Shown: positions 2,119 through 28,457 of the stretch, in pieces
Layout of the letters: each line of letters opens with the position of its first letter
Numbering within the stretch: position 1 is the stretch's first letter
DNA from: Bacteroidota bacterium
GTDB lineage: Bacteria; Bacteroidota; Ignavibacteria; Ignavibacteriales; Ignavibacteriaceae
Direction of reading: 5' to 3'
Length of the DNA: 64,000 nucleotides
Assembly: GCA_021824145.1 (NCBI GenBank)
Contig: JAKALM010000001.1
Span: forward strand, 372,001-436,000
Notes under the pieces: model-generated
The model's database searches: none
What the model saw: only the letters and a program-made list of their open reading frames with translations
Told to the model about the DNA's origin: nothing
Program-made: the position numbers and the translations under genes

Positions 2119-2997
2119 CTATAACAAATTACTTTTCTTTAAAATTGAAATAAGATCTTCTCTTTCTAATTTTGTAAGTGAAGTTAATGGTAAACGCGGT
2201 TCGCCTCCAAAATATCCAAGTAAATCCATTGCTGCTTTTAAACCCGACACACCATATTTTGATGTTACAGCTTTATTTAGTGAAATTAAATTCATCTGGA
2301 GTTTCTTTGCTTCTTCCAATCTTCCTTGATTAACATCTTCAAAAATTTTTATACACTCATTCGGTGCAATATTTGCAAGAGCTAAAATTCCTCCACTAGC
2401 ACCGGCAGATAATCCTGGATACAATATTGAAGCAGTGCCTACAAATGTTAAGAAATTAGAAGAAGTCAAATGAATTATTTCTGTAAGGTTAGCAATATTT
2501 TCTTCACTATTTTTAATTCCTATTATATTTTGATGCTCTGAAAGTTTTGCAACTGTTTCTGGTTCAATACTAACGCCAGTAAATTTTGGAACATTATAAA
2601 TGATGAGCGGAATTGATATACTGTCTGCAATTGTTGAAAAGTATTTTATAAATGCTTCATGTTTCATTTGAGATTTATAAAATGAAGGAGTTAAAATTAA
2701 TGCGGCATCTGCTCCAAGATTTGCAGCTTCAATAGATAATGAGATAGTCTCTTTGATTGAATCTGAGCCCGTGCCCGCAATTAATTTCTTGTCATCGGAT
2801 TTATTTTTTTTTACAAATTCAATCAGCTTTAACTTTTCGTTCCGAGTTAAGAAAACACTTTCCCCATTAGAGCCAAACACAACATAACCGCTTAATTTTG
2901 TTTTATTCCATTTCGAAATATTTTCTCCAAGCTTATTAAAGGCGATCTCATCATTTTCAAATGGAGTTGTAATTGGCGGCATTATTCCTTTTAACAT
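2119..2997 (-). CDS. DapA/NAL-family aldolase, 4-hydroxy-2-oxoglutarate aldolase-like
   Basis: Class I (Schiff-base) aldolase of the dihydrodipicolinate synthase/N-acetylneuraminate lyase superfamily, 292 residues. Lys162 in GIKNS is the expected Schiff-base lysine and Tyr134 in IIYNVP the catalytic tyrosine. The pyruvate-binding loop reads GSNGE (42-46), as in mitochondrial HOGA1, rather than the GTTGE of DapA. From memory the whole C-terminal half, including GLKAAMDLLGYFGG and the preceding AVTSKYGV, follows HOGA1 closely. HOGA splits 4-hydroxy-2-oxoglutarate into pyruvate and glyoxylate, the last step of hydroxyproline breakdown. It lies 25 bp downstream of the proline dehydrogenase gene with an AGGAA ribosome site, so the two are probably one operon. 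A plain DapA or other keto-acid aldolase remains possible. Confidence 0.85.
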   Translation of the reverse strand: MLKGIMPPITTPFENDEIAFNKLGENISKWNKTKLSGYVVFGSNGESVFLTRNEKLKLIEFVKKNKSDDKKLIAGTGSDSIKETISLSIEAANLGADAALILTPSFYKSQMKHEAFIKYFSTIADSISIPLIIYNVPKFTGVSIEPETVAKLSEHQNIIGIKNSEENIANLTEIIHLTSSNFLTFVGTASILYPGLSAGASGGILALANIAPNECIKIFEDVNQGRLEEAKKLQMNLISLNKAVTSKYGVSGLKAAMDLLGYFGGEPRLPLTSLTKLEREDLISILKKSNLL

Positions 2998-3022
2998 TTT
3001 TATATTTTCCTATTAATAAATT

Positions 3023-3952
3023 TTATTTTGAATAAATATTTTTTAATACAAAACCAACATTTGCTGGCCTTTCCGCTAATCGTCGCATGTACCACGAATA
3101 CCAAGCAGTTCCATAGCTAATTAAAACTTTTAGTTTATATCCTTCTTTAACCAGTAGAAGTTGTTCTCTTGGTTTGATCCCATATAGCATATGAAATTCA
3201 ATTTGTTCGTGTTGGACTTTTAAATCGGCAGAAATCTTTTTTATTTGATTAATAATTTTAAGATCATGAGTTCCAAATACAGTTTTAATATCGCATTCTT
3301 TTATTTGAGCTAAAAGTATTTTTGCAACTTTAAGATAATTTTTATCAACATCACTTTTGGCTTTGAAGGCAATATTTTGTGGTTCCATGTAAGCTCCTTT
3401 AACTAAACGGATATTAGGCTTAATATCAAGAAGCGATAGGAGATCATTTTCAGTTTGTTTTAAATAGGCTTGGAGACAAATTCCAATATTTTTACTATTG
3501 GATTTTGCACGACGATAAAAATCTAAAGTTGTTTTTGTGTAAGAACTGCTTTCCATATCAATCCAAACAAAATTAGAAAACTCACTCGCTTTTTGTGCAA
3601 TCTGATTAAAATAATCTAAGGATTTATTAAGCGAAAGGTCAAGTCCAATTTGTGTTAACTTGAGAGAGATTTCAGAATTTATCTTTTCACTATAAATTTT
3701 TTCAAGCACTTCTAAATAATGATTTTTAACATTTTCAGCTTCCTTTATTTCGTTTATGTTTTCACCAAGATGGGTGAATACAGTTGAAACGCCTTGCTCC
3801 ATAAAATCTTTAGTGGCTTTTATTGCATCGCTGAGATTTTCGCCGGGCATAAATTTTCTTACTGCTTTCTTAACAAATTTATAACTTGGAACGTGTTTCA
3901 ACATCCATGTATTCTTCGATGCCCAAAGCAATAGATTTCGTGAAATTCCCAT
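3023..3952 (-). CDS. Proline dehydrogenase family flavoenzyme (monofunctional)
   Basis: FAD-dependent oxidation of proline (or 4-hydroxyproline) to the pyrroline carboxylate, feeding electrons to quinone. The 309-residue (beta/alpha)8 domain shows RLVKGAY (182-188), EFHMLYG (252-258) and YMRRLAERPAN (288-298), whose Arg290-Arg291 pair binds the substrate carboxylate. Position 277, where related enzymes read R-V-Y-V-P-Y-G, is Leu here (KVLISYG). That tyrosine (Tyr540 in E. coli PutA) enforces preference for proline over hydroxyproline. The start is supported by a GGAG-rich ribosome site just upstream. First gene of a probable two-gene operon with the 4-hydroxy-2-oxoglutarate-aldolase-like gene; no P5C dehydrogenase is in the window. 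Family assignment is firm; substrate preference is inferred. Confidence 0.93.
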   Translation of the reverse strand: MGISRNLLLWASKNTWMLKHVPSYKFVKKAVRKFMPGENLSDAIKATKDFMEQGVSTVFTHLGENINEIKEAENVKNHYLEVLEKIYSEKINSEISLKLTQIGLDLSLNKSLDYFNQIAQKASEFSNFVWIDMESSSYTKTTLDFYRRAKSNSKNIGICLQAYLKQTENDLLSLLDIKPNIRLVKGAYMEPQNIAFKAKSDVDKNYLKVAKILLAQIKECDIKTVFGTHDLKIINQIKKISADLKVQHEQIEFHMLYGIKPREQLLLVKEGYKLKVLISYGTAWYSWYMRRLAERPANVGFVLKNIYSK

Positions 3953-4987: not shown

Positions 4988-5449
4988 TTAATTTTCAATT
5001 CTTACTCTATCCGAAATTTCGTTTATATCATCTGGCTTTAAAGGAAAATGTTCACTTAAAATTTTTCCTATTTCATCAATACCAAACAAAATTCCTTTGC
5101 AAAAATCACCTCGAACAAACATGCTTTGCATTTTATCTTTAATACTGTGCCACGTATTCTCAGAAACCTTTTCATTTATTCCACTGTCTGCAAGAATATA
5201 AAATTGCCGTCCTTCAAGTAAAATAAAAATTAAAATTCCAGTTTTATCTTTTGTCTTGTCAATTCCGAGTCGGAAAAAATCCTCCTCAGCAAGTTCTCTA
5301 ATTGATTTTTTCTTTTTTAAAAAATGACGACGTTCTTTAATAGTAACACAGATTTCTCCCGCAGTAATTTTTTCAGTTTCTTTTATTTTGTTAGAAATCC
5401 GGAGAAGTTCATCGTCATTTAGAAAGTGATAAATTAATCGTGGTTCCAT
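4988..5449 (-). CDS. TPM-domain protein
   Basis: 153-residue protein made almost entirely of one TPM domain. This fold is seen in plant thylakoid acid phosphatase TLP18.3 and in many bacterial envelope proteins. Recognisable elements are KIKETEKITAGEICVTIKER at the start, the FRLGIDKTKDKTGILIFIL strand-turn and FYILADSGINEKV. Unlike many TPM proteins it has no signal peptide or transmembrane helix, so it looks cytoplasmic or peripheral. Role unknown; phosphatase activity of the plant relative has not been generalised. It converges on trxA. Confidence 0.8.
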   Translation of the reverse strand: MEPRLIYHFLNDDELLRISNKIKETEKITAGEICVTIKERRHFLKKKKSIRELAEEDFFRLGIDKTKDKTGILIFILLEGRQFYILADSGINEKVSENTWHSIKDKMQSMFVRGDFCKGILFGIDEIGKILSEHFPLKPDDINEISDRVRIEN

Positions 5450-18723: not shown

Positions 18724-21700
18724 ATGAATCGTTTCTTCAATTCATTTGCTCTTGCTTTGATGTTTACTGCATCTGTATTGGCACAAGACAAACTTCAAAA
18801 GCCGGATGCGCTTATGCTTCGCTTTCCAGATGTAAGCAAAGATAAAATTGTTTTTGTTTATGCTGGTGATATTTGGACTGTCTCAAAAGATGGAGGAATT
18901 GCAACTCGTTTGAGTACAGCCAAAGGGCAAGAATATTTCCCTAAATTTTCCCCAGATGGTAAACAAATTGCATTTACAGGAAACTACGACGGTAATATGG
19001 ATGTTTATGTTATGCCATCAATAGGAGGAATTCCCAAAAGATTAACACACAATCCGTCCGTTGATTTTGTTGTTGATTGGTATCCAAACGGAAAAGATAT
19101 TCTTTACCGCTCCGGAATGTACAGCCCTTCAAATAGATTTAACAGATTATTCAAAGAATCAGCCGAAGGCGGAATGCCAGATCAGCTTCCCATGAAAGTT
19201 GCAGAAATTGGTTCCTTCAATTCAGATGCGAGTAAGCTAGTGTTTGAAACAGCTTCCTTAGAATTTAGAACTTGGAAACGTTATCGCGGCGGCTGGGCAA
19301 GTAAACTTTGGATTTACGATTTTAAAAATAATACTGCAGAGCAAATAACTTTCGATAAGGCAAGTGATGCTGTTCCTATGTGGTATAAAAATACAATATA
19401 TTTCTTATCAGATAGAGACGAAAATAAAATCGGAAATATTTGGGCTTATGATGTTAATACAAAACAACTGCGAGAAGTTACTCACTTTACCGATTTCGAT
19501 GTAAAGTGGCCGAGCCTCGGTCCGAACGACATTGTTTTTGAAAAAGGCGGGGAAGTTTTCCTTTTAGATTTAGCTACAGAAAAAACTCAGCCGGTTGATA
19601 TTAAAGTTCCCGCCGATCTTCCGCAGGATAGACCGCAGCTTAAAAATCTTTCTGGTTTAATAAATGATTATTCACTTTCACCAACTGGCAAACGCGCTTT
19701 ATTCGGTGCAAGGGGCGAAGTAATTACAGTTCCGGAAAAACACGGAATGGTTCAAGATTTAACAAATACTTCAGGAGTAGCTGAAAGATTTCCAGCATGG
19801 TCCCCAGATGGGAAATTTGTAGCTTACTTTTCAGATAAAACCGGGGAGTATGAACTTTATATTCGTTCCGGTGATGGCAGCGGCGAAGAAAAGCAAATTA
19901 CACACGACGGGCATTGTTTTAGATACAATCCCAAATGGTCACCTAACAGCAAATGGATTGCATTCAGCGATAAGACAGGCAGCATTTATGTAGTAAATAT
20001 TGATGATGGTAAACCAAAATTAGTAGATAAAAATAATTGGGACTTTCACGTGCATTATAATTGGTCTTCAGATAGTAAATGGCTCGCTTACGATAAAGGT
20101 ATGAACGAACTAGCGAATTCAGTTTTTATTTATGGACTTGAAGATGGAAAAACTCATCAAGTAACAACAGGTTATTACAACAGCTATTCACCAGTATTCG
20201 ATCCAAGCGGAAAATATCTTTATTATTATTCGAACGATAATTTTCATCCGGTTTACAGTGATATGGATGCAACTTGGGTTTATCCTAATTCAACAAGTAT
20301 AATTGCAGTTACACTTCAAAAAGATGAATTATCTCCACTTACTCCTCAAAATGATGAAGAATCAGCAAAACAAGATTCATCAAAGAAAAAAACTGAAGAT
20401 TTGAATTCTAAAAAAGATGAAAGCAAAAAAGAAAAATCGGAAGAAGGTGGAAAGCTAGTTAAAATTGATTTTGAAAATATTGATCAGCGTGCAGTAAAGC
20501 TGCCGATTGATTATGGAAATTTTGGTTCTCTTTATGCAGTTGATGGCAAGGTGCTTTATCAGAAAGAACCTGCTGCCGGAGCTGCAAAACCCGGTGCGCC
20601 ATCTGGATCTGTTTACTTTTATGATTTGAAAGAGAGAGAATCTAAAGAAATAATTTCCGGTGTAAATGGTTTTGATGTTTCTGCTGATGGTAAAAAAATT
20701 ATTTATAAAAGCGGGTCAACTTATGGAATAATTGATGTTGCTGCAGGCAAGAAAGTTGGCGATGGAAAAATTGAAACTGAAAAAATGGAAACATGGATTA
20801 ATCCGCGCCAAGAATGGAATGAAATATTTGATGATGCATGGCGTATCGAACGAGATTATTTTTATGATCCCGGAATGCACGGCGTTAATTGGGTGGGAAT
20901 TAAAAAACGTTATGAATCACTTCTTCCTTATGTTGTTGATAGGAATGATTTGAATTATGTAATTGGCGAAATGATTTCTGAATTAAATTCTTCGCATACT
21001 TATGTGGGAGGCGGAGATATGGAGCAGCCTAAATCAGTAAATGTCGGTATGCTGGGATGCGATTACAAACTTGAAAATGGATTCTACAGAATTACAAAAA
21101 TTTATAGCGGTGGGCCATGGGATAACACTGAAGTTCGTTCTCCGCTTTTAGCTCCAGGTGTTGATGTTAAAGAAGGTGATTATTTGATTGCTGTAAATGG
21201 TCAACCGGTTGATATAAAAAAAGATCCATGGGCTGCATTTCAGAATTTAGCAAATGAAGTTGTTTCGCTGACAATAAATTCTAAACCAACATTGGATGGT
21301 GCAAAAAAAGTTTTAGTTAAACCTTTGGCAAGCGAAGCACGCTTACGAAATCTTGATTGGATTGAAGAGAACAGAAAAAAGGTAGAAAAAGAAACTGATG
21401 GGAAAGTTGGCTATGTTTATGTTCCAAATACTGGGGTTGATGGGCAAAGCGAATTAGTTCGTCAATACACTGCACAATATAAAAAAGAAGCAATGATAAT
21501 TGATGAGCGCTTCAATAGCGGGGGACAAATTCCTGATCGTTTTGTTGAACTTATGAATCGACCAATTTTAAGCTATTGGGCAAGACGCGATTTTCATAGC
21601 GGGCAAACTCCGGAAATTTCATGTCCAGGGCCAAAAGTTATGTTGATAAATGGTTGGTCTGGCTCTGGCGGGGATGCTTTCCCATATTACTTCAAAGAAG

Positions 21701-22005
21701 AAAAAATTGGTAAACTAATTGGTAAAAGGACGTGGGGCGGATTGATAGGTTATGGTGATAATCCTCAGCCAATCGATGGCGGATTTTTATCGGCACCAAG
21801 TTTTGGAATTTGGGATACAACGGGACACTGGACAGTGGAAGGATATGGTGTTGATCCGGATTATGAAGTGACCGATAATCCAGCAGAGCTTGCAAAAGGA
21901 AATGATCAACAGCTTGAAAAAGCTATTGAAGTAGTTAAAGAAGAGCTTAAACAGAATCCGCCGAAGGATTTACATAAACCGCCTTATCCAGATAAATCGA
22001 AATAA
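18724..22005 (+). CDS. Exported tricorn-type S41 protease
   Basis: 1093-residue peptidase related to archaeal tricorn core protease, which degrades peptides of about 6-12 residues. A signal peptide (ALALMFTASVLAQ) sends it to the periplasm. It has two beta-propeller regions made of PD40/WD40-like repeats (FSPDGKQIAFTGN, WSPDGKFVAYFSD, WSPNSKWIAFSDKTG). After a lysine/glutamate-rich linker (about 545-580) come the C1 domain, a PDZ domain (YKLENGFYRITKIYSGGPWD...GDYLIAVNGQPV) and the S41 core. Candidate catalytic residues are His in ELNSSHTYVGGG and Ser in GWSGSGGDAFPYYF. Full length for the family. A perfect hairpin follows the stop. Confidence 0.95.
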   Translation: MNRFFNSFALALMFTASVLAQDKLQKPDALMLRFPDVSKDKIVFVYAGDIWTVSKDGGIATRLSTAKGQEYFPKFSPDGKQIAFTGNYDGNMDVYVMPSIGGIPKRLTHNPSVDFVVDWYPNGKDILYRSGMYSPSNRFNRLFKESAEGGMPDQLPMKVAEIGSFNSDASKLVFETASLEFRTWKRYRGGWASKLWIYDFKNNTAEQITFDKASDAVPMWYKNTIYFLSDRDENKIGNIWAYDVNTKQLREVTHFTDFDVKWPSLGPNDIVFEKGGEVFLLDLATEKTQPVDIKVPADLPQDRPQLKNLSGLINDYSLSPTGKRALFGARGEVITVPEKHGMVQDLTNTSGVAERFPAWSPDGKFVAYFSDKTGEYELYIRSGDGSGEEKQITHDGHCFRYNPKWSPNSKWIAFSDKTGSIYVVNIDDGKPKLVDKNNWDFHVHYNWSSDSKWLAYDKGMNELANSVFIYGLEDGKTHQVTTGYYNSYSPVFDPSGKYLYYYSNDNFHPVYSDMDATWVYPNSTSIIAVTLQKDELSPLTPQNDEESAKQDSSKKKTEDLNSKKDESKKEKSEEGGKLVKIDFENIDQRAVKLPIDYGNFGSLYAVDGKVLYQKEPAAGAAKPGAPSGSVYFYDLKERESKEIISGVNGFDVSADGKKIIYKSGSTYGIIDVAAGKKVGDGKIETEKMETWINPRQEWNEIFDDAWRIERDYFYDPGMHGVNWVGIKKRYESLLPYVVDRNDLNYVIGEMISELNSSHTYVGGGDMEQPKSVNVGMLGCDYKLENGFYRITKIYSGGPWDNTEVRSPLLAPGVDVKEGDYLIAVNGQPVDIKKDPWAAFQNLANEVVSLTINSKPTLDGAKKVLVKPLASEARLRNLDWIEENRKKVEKETDGKVGYVYVPNTGVDGQSELVRQYTAQYKKEAMIIDERFNSGGQIPDRFVELMNRPILSYWARRDFHSGQTPEISCPGPKVMLINGWSGSGGDAFPYYFKEEKIGKLIGKRTWGGLIGYGDNPQPIDGGFLSAPSFGIWDTTGHWTVEGYGVDPDYEVTDNPAELAKGNDQQLEKAIEVVKEELKQNPPKDLHKPPYPDKSK

Positions 22006-26414: not shown

Positions 26415-28457
26415 TTACCAAATTTTAACTAGTTTGTCACCGGATCTTCTCATTGGGTCTCCAGGTTTTACATCAAATGCCTGCCAAAATGCAGGTGTAT
26501 TGCTTAATGGCCCATCAACCCGGTATTGTTCTGGCGAATGCGGATCTACTTTAACACGAAGTCTTAATCTTTCAGGTCTGTTTTTTATTCTCCAAATTGT
26601 TGCATAAGAAATGAAAAATCTTTGAGCAGGAGTAAAACCGTCAATTGATTTTCCTGATTTGTATTCTGCAGTTTTTTTGAATGCATCAAATGAAATATTA
26701 ACTCCGCCAAGATCGGCAATATTTTCACCTTCAGTTAACTTGCCATTTACATGCAAAGTATCAACAGCAATGTAATTATCAAATTGATCGACAATTCTTT
26801 CTGCTCTTTTATTGAAATTTTCTTCATCTTGTTTTGTCCACCAATCTTTTAAGTTTCCAGATGCATCATATTGTCTACCTTGGTCATCAAAGCCGTGCGT
26901 CATTTCATGACCAATTACACACCCAATTCCACCATAATTAATTGCATCATCTGCATTGGGATTAAAAAATGGAGGCTGCAAAATTCCTGCAGGAAAAACT
27001 ATTTCGTTGTTAGACGGATTATAATATGCATTAACAGTCTGTGGCGTCATTCCCCATTCAGATTTATCGACTGGTTTTCCAATTTTAGCTAAATTCTTTT
27101 TAGTTTCATAAATTGAAGTGTTGAGAACATTTCCAAAATATGAATCTCTGGTTATTACTAAACCTTTATAACTTTTCCATTTATCGGGATATCCAATTTT
27201 TACAGTGAACGCAGCTAATTTTTTTAAAGCAGCTTTTTTGGTTTCTGGACTCATCCATTCTAAATTTTCAATTCTTGCTTTTAGAGATGCCATTAAATTG
27301 TGAACTAATTCTAATGCACGTTTTTTTGCGTATGGCGGAAAATATTCTTTCACAAATAATTTTCCAAGTTCCATACCAATTTGCCCATTTACAGTGCCCA
27401 TAACTCTTTTCCAACGCGGCTGCATTTCTTTTGTTCCGTTAAGAACTTTTCCGAAGAAATTAAATTCTGCGTCAACAAAATTATCGCTTAAATAAGGAGC
27501 TGCAGTGCGAATGATATTCCATTTTAAATATTCTTTTAGATTTTCGATTGGTGTATTCTTAACTACATTGTTTATTTCTTTTACAAAATCCGGCTGTGCA
27601 ACATTAATATCTTTCGGTTCTTTTGTGCCAATATTTGCGAAGTATTCATTCCAATTAAAATCCGGTGAAAGGCTTATTAATTCTTTCATAGTCATTTTAT
27701 GATATATCTTATTCGGATTTCTCATCTCAACACGCGGCATAGAAGCTTTAGCAAGTTGAGTTTCTAAGTTCATAATATCTTCAGCACTTTTTGAAGCTTT
27801 TGTTTCATCATATCCAATTAAACTGAATAATTTTTTAATTAATTGAGTATAATCTTCACGGATAGTTTTTGTTTTATCATCATCTTTAAGGTAATAATCT
27901 CTATCAGGCATTCCTAAGCCACTCTGAAATAATTGTGCAATATTCATTTTGCTGTTTTTTTCATCCGTCCCAGCGCCAAAAGAAAATAATGGGTTAGAAT
28001 ATCCAAGTTGAACTTTTGCTAATTCTTTATAAAAATCGTTTAGATTTTTAATTGCATCAACTGCATTTAAATCTTTTTCGATTGGCTTATAACCTTGTTT
28101 TTCAATATTTGCACTATCCATACCAGAAGCATAAAAATCTCCAACAAGCTGTTCACTGCTTCCTTTTTTTACACTTTTCAATTTTTCAACATTTGTTAAA
28201 ATATTTTTAAGCTTTGTTAAATTTTCATCCCCAAGTATATAAAAGGAACCCCATCCTGAATATGCAGCTGGTATCTCAGTATTTTTCAACCAGGTTCCAT
28301 TAACATATTGAAAAAAATCTGTTGCAGGACTTACTGAAAGGTCCATATCTTTTTTATTTATTTCATCTGCATTTTTCTCTGACTGACAAAAAGCAGAAGA
28401 AGTCAATCCAAGCATAAATATGCTTAAAATGAAAAGAATTGATTTGTGAATTTTCAT
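26415..28457 (-). CDS. pepO: M13-family zinc metallopeptidase (neprilysin-like)
   Basis: 680-residue exported endopeptidase that cleaves small peptides. Signal peptide (ILFILSIFMLGLTSSAFCQ), then DLSVSPATDFFQYVNGTWL, the standard start of bacterial M13 enzymes. The catalytic zinc motif HEMTH lies in CVIGHEMTHGFDDQGRQYD; the third zinc ligand is the Glu in EGENIADLGGV, and the substrate-backbone motif N-A-Y-Y reads VNAYYNPSNNEIVFPAGIL. The C-terminus ends in the family's W (KLVKIW). Full length, all catalytic residues present. Likely periplasmic or outer-membrane facing. Stand-alone transcription with its own terminator. Confidence 0.96.
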   Translation of the reverse strand: MKIHKSILFILSIFMLGLTSSAFCQSEKNADEINKKDMDLSVSPATDFFQYVNGTWLKNTEIPAAYSGWGSFYILGDENLTKLKNILTNVEKLKSVKKGSSEQLVGDFYASGMDSANIEKQGYKPIEKDLNAVDAIKNLNDFYKELAKVQLGYSNPLFSFGAGTDEKNSKMNIAQLFQSGLGMPDRDYYLKDDDKTKTIREDYTQLIKKLFSLIGYDETKASKSAEDIMNLETQLAKASMPRVEMRNPNKIYHKMTMKELISLSPDFNWNEYFANIGTKEPKDINVAQPDFVKEINNVVKNTPIENLKEYLKWNIIRTAAPYLSDNFVDAEFNFFGKVLNGTKEMQPRWKRVMGTVNGQIGMELGKLFVKEYFPPYAKKRALELVHNLMASLKARIENLEWMSPETKKAALKKLAAFTVKIGYPDKWKSYKGLVITRDSYFGNVLNTSIYETKKNLAKIGKPVDKSEWGMTPQTVNAYYNPSNNEIVFPAGILQPPFFNPNADDAINYGGIGCVIGHEMTHGFDDQGRQYDASGNLKDWWTKQDEENFNKRAERIVDQFDNYIAVDTLHVNGKLTEGENIADLGGVNISFDAFKKTAEYKSGKSIDGFTPAQRFFISYATIWRIKNRPERLRLRVKVDPHSPEQYRVDGPLSNTPAFWQAFDVKPGDPMRRSGDKLVKIW

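Follow-up and report, generated by a model that had tools for sequence, protein, structure and literature searches.

A linked proline dehydrogenase-type and HOGA-type aldolase gene pair as the probable core of a bacterial hydroxyproline catabolic cluster in Ignavibacteria

Collagen and plant cell-wall proteins are rich in hydroxyproline, and several routes for its catabolism have been described. The vertebrate pathway for 4-hydroxyproline involves PRODH2/HYPDH, ALDH4A1/P5CDH, GOT2, HOGA1 and AGXT, and 3-hydroxyproline is handled by the dehydratase L3HYPDH together with CRYM (mu-crystallin) (PMC8779045). In bacteria, one known route relies on HypD (PMC7077986). A second, the epimerase route of Proteobacteria and Streptomyces, uses 4-hydroxyproline epimerase, D-hydroxyproline dehydrogenase, P4C deaminase and KGSA dehydrogenase, as described for Colwellia BB5 (PMC7883544) and Streptomyces (PMC6608401).

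The locus described here resembles the vertebrate mitochondrial and peroxisomal pathway in its enzyme families, in the inferred order of the steps and in the HOGA1-specific residues, and the clusters of related bacteria also encode members of the AGT and 3-hydroxyproline dehydratase families. It differs in that the bacterial genes are clustered in one locus and in that the bacterial proline dehydrogenase (PRODH) is of a minimal monofunctional type with a Leu/Trp pair in its pocket. Some relatives have a gene for HypD in this cluster, but HypD dehydrates hydroxyproline to P5C, needs neither HOGA nor AGT, and was not found near the pair of genes studied here. The epimerase route is likewise encoded by a cluster for collagen or hydroxyproline that includes prolidases and transporters. 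Its chemistry and its end product are different (2-oxoglutarate and not pyruvate and glyoxylate), and the PF05544 gene of the present clusters scores best as a 3-hydroxyproline dehydratase.

The window, a stretch of 64,000 nucleotides from an uncultured member of the Ignavibacteriaceae, carries the genes of a PRODH (3023 to 3952) and of an aldolase (2119 to 2997) next to each other on the minus strand. They are separated by a spacer of 25 bp (2998 to 3022, minus strand) and are presumably co-transcribed, with the PRODH gene first. Judged from sequence, the pair is probably (about 0.78) the core of a hydroxyproline cluster, the bacterial counterpart of the vertebrate HYPDH-P5CDH-transaminase-HOGA-AGT route for collagen-derived 4-hydroxyproline. 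Gene identity, key residues, clustering, co-occurrence and the presence of the HypD and P5CDH families were observed directly; the substrates of the PRODH and of the aldolase, co-transcription, the transaminase step and the use of the route in the strain of the window are inferred.

The aldolase is 292 residues long and matches the DHDPS family (PF00701) with 208 bits in a Pfam scan. Its best match among PDB sequences is human HOGA1 (212 bits), followed by the DapA of M. jannaschii (169 bits). When a profile of 19 PRODH-linked aldolases was compared with the PDB, HOGA1 reached 296 bits and the next match, a DapA, 201 bits, which places HOGA1 far above both the KDG aldolases and DapA. Kinetics and structure of human HOGA1 single out Lys196, Tyr168, Ser77, Asn78 and Ser198, instead of which DapA has Thr-Thr, Ala163 and Arg138 (PMC3188589). 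The window aldolase has Lys162, Tyr134, Ser43, Asn44, Ser164 and Phe139. Its GSNGE loop (2860 to 2874, minus strand) aligns with Gly76-Ser77-Asn78-Gly79-Glu80 of HOGA1, and the Schiff-base Lys162 and the HOGA-specific Ser164 (2506 to 2514, minus strand) align with Lys196 and Ser198, the latter being Ala in DapA (PMC3188589). The whole set, with the catalytic Tyr134, is invariant in the linked aldolases and in 29 of the 29 strong homologues of the class. The HOGA-type loop, in place of the GTTGE of DapA, had been pointed out in the initial annotation and is borne out by these alignments. The genome encodes a separate true DapA on another contig (C32), which has GTTGE and the diagnostic Arg and Ala.

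In the tree proposed as a check of that annotation, DapA split off with a support of 100, and human HOGA1 grouped with the aldolases linked to window-type PRODHs (25 rows, support 88). The window aldolase therefore does not group with DapA. It nevertheless passes the NCBIfam DapA equivalog TIGR00674 by a small margin (209.3 against 206.15 bits), and automatic annotation would therefore read DapA. This pass by 3 bits, the membership of the DHDPS superfamily and the existence of HOGA-like relatives with unassigned roles are what speaks for a second DapA or a sugar-acid (2-keto-3-deoxy) aldolase that lies beside the PRODH by accident. We regard this as very improbable in view of the separate DapA in the genome, the Phe139 and Ser164 at the places of the DapA Arg138 and Ala163, and the lead of HOGA1 in the profile scores. 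Moreover, no recurring sugar-acid genes were seen at the loci, and the adjacency of PRODH and aldolase is conserved over several families.

Two further observations concern the aldolases. In one genome of the family (G037), the gene is broken into two open reading frames (L054, 6999 to 7933), by a frameshift or a sequencing error. At L316 and L318 to L326, HOGA-like aldolases (300 to 370 bits) with the Ser-Asn/Ser signature stand in varied contexts, unlinked to window-type PRODH or to AGT.

The PRODH is 309 residues long and matches Pro_dh (PF01619) with 109 bits in a Pfam scan. Against PDB sequences it scores 199 bits with the PRODH of T. thermophilus and 158 bits with that of D. radiodurans, and its profile matches among the PDB entries are 2ekg and 4h6q. 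The AlphaFold model (pLDDT 88.7) superimposes on 2g37 and 4h6q with a Z of 37, and the predicted fold is that of an ordinary PRODH. The catalytic Lys, Asp and Arg-Arg are kept in the alignment of window-type PRODHs. Family profile, fold and catalytic residues are thus those of the monofunctional bacterial type, as in the T. thermophilus and D. radiodurans enzymes. The protein does not, however, reach the NCBIfam ProDh_Thermus equivalog for proline-specific PRODH (235 bits against a cut-off of 500), and it has a Leu/Trp pocket where those two enzymes have Tyr/Tyr, in addition to the differences A36P and D60T.

The Leu of this pocket is Leu277 (codon TTA, 3122 to 3124, minus strand). It aligns with the Tyr of the YVPYG/YLPYG motif in the PRODH/PutA sequences of T. 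thermophilus, D. radiodurans and G. sulfurreducens, at the position of PutA Tyr540. The claim of the initial annotation that Leu stands here where characterized enzymes have Tyr is confirmed by these three alignments and by the PDB profile. A second replacement had been overlooked: Trp287 (codon TGG, 3092 to 3094, minus strand) takes the place of the other pocket Tyr, PutA Tyr552. The PutA numbers were obtained by alignment to the Geobacter PutA and by a count of positions within the motif, and the geometry of the substrate pocket is likewise taken from alignment. Among the structures listed for the PRODH model is 3e2q, in which PutA Y540S was crystallized with trans-4-hydroxy-L-proline. The importance of PutA Tyr540 was reportedly brought out by Ostrander in 2009 with the Y540S variant. 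The replacement of this Tyr that would be expected of a hydroxyproline dehydrogenase is present as Leu277, yet it is common to a much larger clade of PRODHs with Leu/Trp (L/W).

Within the family, Leu occupies position 277 in 24 of 24 orthologues of the window PRODH and Tyr in 45 of 45 canonical paralogues, so the Leu is not due to chance. When 78 PRODHs of the L type were set against 43 of the Y type, just four near-fixed differences emerged, A36P, D60T, Y277L and Y287W. In a tree built without columns 277 to 287, and including no eukaryotic sequence, the L/W enzymes form a clade of 78 rows (support 99) that spans Acidobacteriota, Gemmatimonadota, Chloroflexota, Actinomycetota and others. In this tree the other PRODH of the genome belongs to the Tyr-type clade and the window enzyme does not, in agreement with the earlier proposal. 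The HOGA-linked PRODHs form one sub-clade of 24 rows (SH-aLRT 99) inside the L/W clade, drawn from Ignavibacteria-like genomes and from metagenome-assembled genomes labelled Bacteroidetes and Deltaproteobacteria/Myxococcota. All 78 members of the L/W clade carry Leu277, fixed together with Trp287, and most have no HOGA neighbour. For this reason, Leu277 was rejected as a stand-alone marker of hydroxyproline use.

No consistent gene neighbour, such as P5CDH, was seen for L/W PRODHs outside the HOGA-linked sub-clade at the loci of other phyla. The loci L130 to L181, from Acidobacteriota, Gemmatimonadota and Chloroflexota, contain a large L/W clade without HOGA neighbours, often in genomes where no other PRODH was found. 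Since about 13 of the genomes sampled yielded no PRODH besides the L/W enzyme, L/W-type PRODHs may simply oxidize proline.

The distribution of the two genes was followed across genomes. A second, window-type PRODH occurs in 25 of 80 genomes of the family. The aldolase is present in 21 of these 25 and in none of the 55 others (Fisher 1e-15, with kinship ignored). Four genomes make up the remainder: in G016, G028 and G068 the PRODH gene is at the end of a contig or close to it, and in G067 the aldolase is truly absent from its side. Two of these genomes belong to one genus (g23): in G067 (L053, 6552 to 7475) the PRODH without an aldolase match is flanked by different genes, and in G068 (L064, 3 to 923) it is at the contig edge. 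Among 391 genomes of the class, a PRODH of the HOGA-linked clade is found in 42 of the 47 with a strong aldolase, and a strong aldolase in none of the 19 with weaker L/W PRODHs. A clean co-occurrence outside this Ignavibacteria-like class was rejected, given that some genomes with only Tyr-type PRODH have HOGA-like aldolases.

Around the pair, a cluster conserved across the class was observed that comprises AGT, P5CDH, trans-3-hydroxyproline dehydratase, Xaa-Pro peptidases, an oligopeptide transporter and HypD. At 29 further strong-aldolase loci, the genes beside the aldolase include the window-type PRODH (24 loci), AGT (23), P5CDH (17), HypD (10), Xaa-Pro peptidase (10) and 3-hydroxyproline dehydratase (7). 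The class-V aminotransferase encoded downstream of the pair in relatives has as its best PDB match 1vjo, a cyanobacterial AGT (392 bits), and scores 317 bits with mouse and 301 bits with human AGT. It is thus closest to AGT among the solved class-V structures, and it stays below all NCBIfam cut-offs. Within the family, strong copies of this gene occur only in genomes with the aldolase. P5CDH, next along in many loci, reaches 802 bits against the TIGR01236 cut-off of 613.6. HypD (trans-4-hydroxyproline dehydratase) lies above its equivalog cut-off of 1100 bits in two representatives (1332 and 1327 bits) and is present, besides the 10 further loci, in the cluster of one member of the family (L052). 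The PF05544 gene has Thr in DRSPTGTG, which under the Cys/Thr rule supports its scoring as a 3-hydroxyproline dehydratase. In the L040 cluster, a gene of the mu-crystallin/OCD family adjoins it. This context of HypD, 3-hydroxyproline dehydratase, AGT, P5CDH and Xaa-Pro peptidases supports the hydroxyproline reading. HypD and the putative respiratory hydroxyproline dehydrogenase stand in one cluster at L300 (847 to 3210), L052 (5754 to 8117), L296, L302 and L335.

The same clusters could be read differently, with the L/W PRODH as a conventional proline dehydrogenase (a respiratory or low-Km one, perhaps) for the proline of collagen peptides, HypD and the 3-hydroxyproline dehydratase handling hydroxyproline, and the aldolase acting on some other 4-hydroxy-2-oxo acid. 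HypD yields P5C without HOGA, P5CDH and Xaa-Pro peptidases fit proline use as well, and in many Chloroflexota, Gemmatimonadota and Acidobacteriota the L/W enzyme is the only PRODH. We nonetheless consider this account improbable, because nearly all genomes of the family already have a Tyr-type PRODH, and because HOGA and AGT, which have no role in proline breakdown, track the HOGA-linked PRODH almost perfectly and the strong aldolase is missing where the L/W PRODHs are of the weaker kind. In addition, the pair has no neighbouring HypD in the strain of the window or in several further strains.

The assembly of the window genome (3.48 Mb, 95% complete) encodes a second PRODH, canonical and of the Tyr type, on another contig (C7), and only the window copy is linked to the aldolase. 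With an ordinary PRODH and a DapA present, routine metabolism of proline and lysine does not require either of the window genes, provided that the C7 enzyme serves proline. The cluster in this strain consists of two genes only. In three congeners (G017, G018 and G021), AGT separates the aldolase from the convergent GDPD gene. The window has a gap of 30 bp at this place (2089 to 2118), and no AGT match was obtained in the whole assembly at E 1e-30. The strain has lost the adjacent aminotransferase gene. P5CDH was not found in the assembly by PF00171 and TIGR01236 searches, and G017 likewise has no match at the TIGR01236 level. Three candidates were rejected, namely a piperidine-6-carboxylate dehydrogenase (C16), an SSADH-like gene (C26) and a partial-match aldehyde dehydrogenase relative of 535 residues that looks AdhE-like by eye (C27). 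In congeners, P5CDH adjoins ychF, near serC. Since ychF is missing from the window assembly too, a gap is likelier than a loss of P5CDH, and the absence of this gene is probably an assembly gap.

These absences raise the question of whether the pair is a decaying remnant of a route that no longer works in this strain, AGT and P5CDH being gone. This is unlikely, as neither gene is disrupted and all catalytic residues are retained, the missing ychF suggests a gap, and other aminotransferases could use the glyoxylate. The hydroxyproline reading of the pair, as a route to glyoxylate and pyruvate, thus gains support from the trees and the cluster context; the part of the original argument that relied on the change of Tyr to Leu is not evidence by itself, and the window strain offers a cluster reduced to two genes.

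Other genes of the window deserve mention. A small gene at 4988 to 5449, judged by eye to resemble a TPM domain, is found close to the cluster in the genus of the window; a similar gene is also near the cluster in another family of the order, at L301 (10016 to 10474), L303, L328 and L329. A tricorn-like protease (18724 to 22005) and an M13 peptidase (26415 to 28457) may have a part in peptide feeding and are unlinked to the pair.

In the proposed pathway, the L/W-type PRODH would oxidize trans-4-hydroxy-L-proline to delta1-pyrroline-3-hydroxy-5-carboxylate, with electrons passing from FAD to the respiratory chain. P5CDH, clustered in many relatives, would convert this product to erythro-4-hydroxyglutamate, and an aminotransferase would yield 4-hydroxy-2-oxoglutarate; no dedicated transaminase for this step was seen. 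The HOGA-type aldolase, through a Schiff base at Lys162, would cleave 4-hydroxy-2-oxoglutarate to pyruvate and glyoxylate, and the AGT-family neighbour of relatives would turn glyoxylate into glycine. 4-Hydroxyglutamate might serve AGT as amino donor, giving net conversion of hydroxyproline to pyruvate and glycine. HypD, in some clusters, may provide a parallel anaerobic branch.

Human HYPDH has been reported to resemble PutA PRODH domains (PMC13155685). Because the bacterial enzyme is minimal and monofunctional, the dehydrogenase step looks independently evolved, and the match to the vertebrate pathway is probably convergent at step one. The likeness of the human enzymes to PutA domains argues against orthology of the window PRODH to eukaryotic PRODH2 (PMC13155685). 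It seems to us an even chance that a complete vertebrate-style oxidative pathway evolved independently of animals in Ignavibacteria and relatives, in one cluster of L/W hydroxyproline dehydrogenase, P5CDH, HOGA and AGT, the last supplying 4-hydroxy-2-oxoglutarate and removing glyoxylate, and that some clusters with the oxygen-sensitive HypD hold two routes for one substrate. No description of a bacterial HYPDH-HOGA-AGT route was found in the literature searched, which is weak evidence, as most subscription journals were outside its coverage. What is new is the bacterial assembly of the pathway and the Leu/Trp dehydrogenase, every component family being already known.

The bacterial hydroxyproline routes that we found described end in 2-oxoglutarate or P5C, and the route to pyruvate and glyoxylate or glycine, if true, would be a third way. 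It would mean that hydroxyproline dehydrogenase activity has more than one origin. Human HOGA1 and AGT, the products of primary hyperoxaluria genes, would gain bacterial homologues that are easy to express. PRODH2, a target of hyperoxaluria drugs without a structure as of a 2026 review (PMC13155685), would gain a functional analogue. Finally, many annotations as "DapA" and "proline dehydrogenase" would be corrected.
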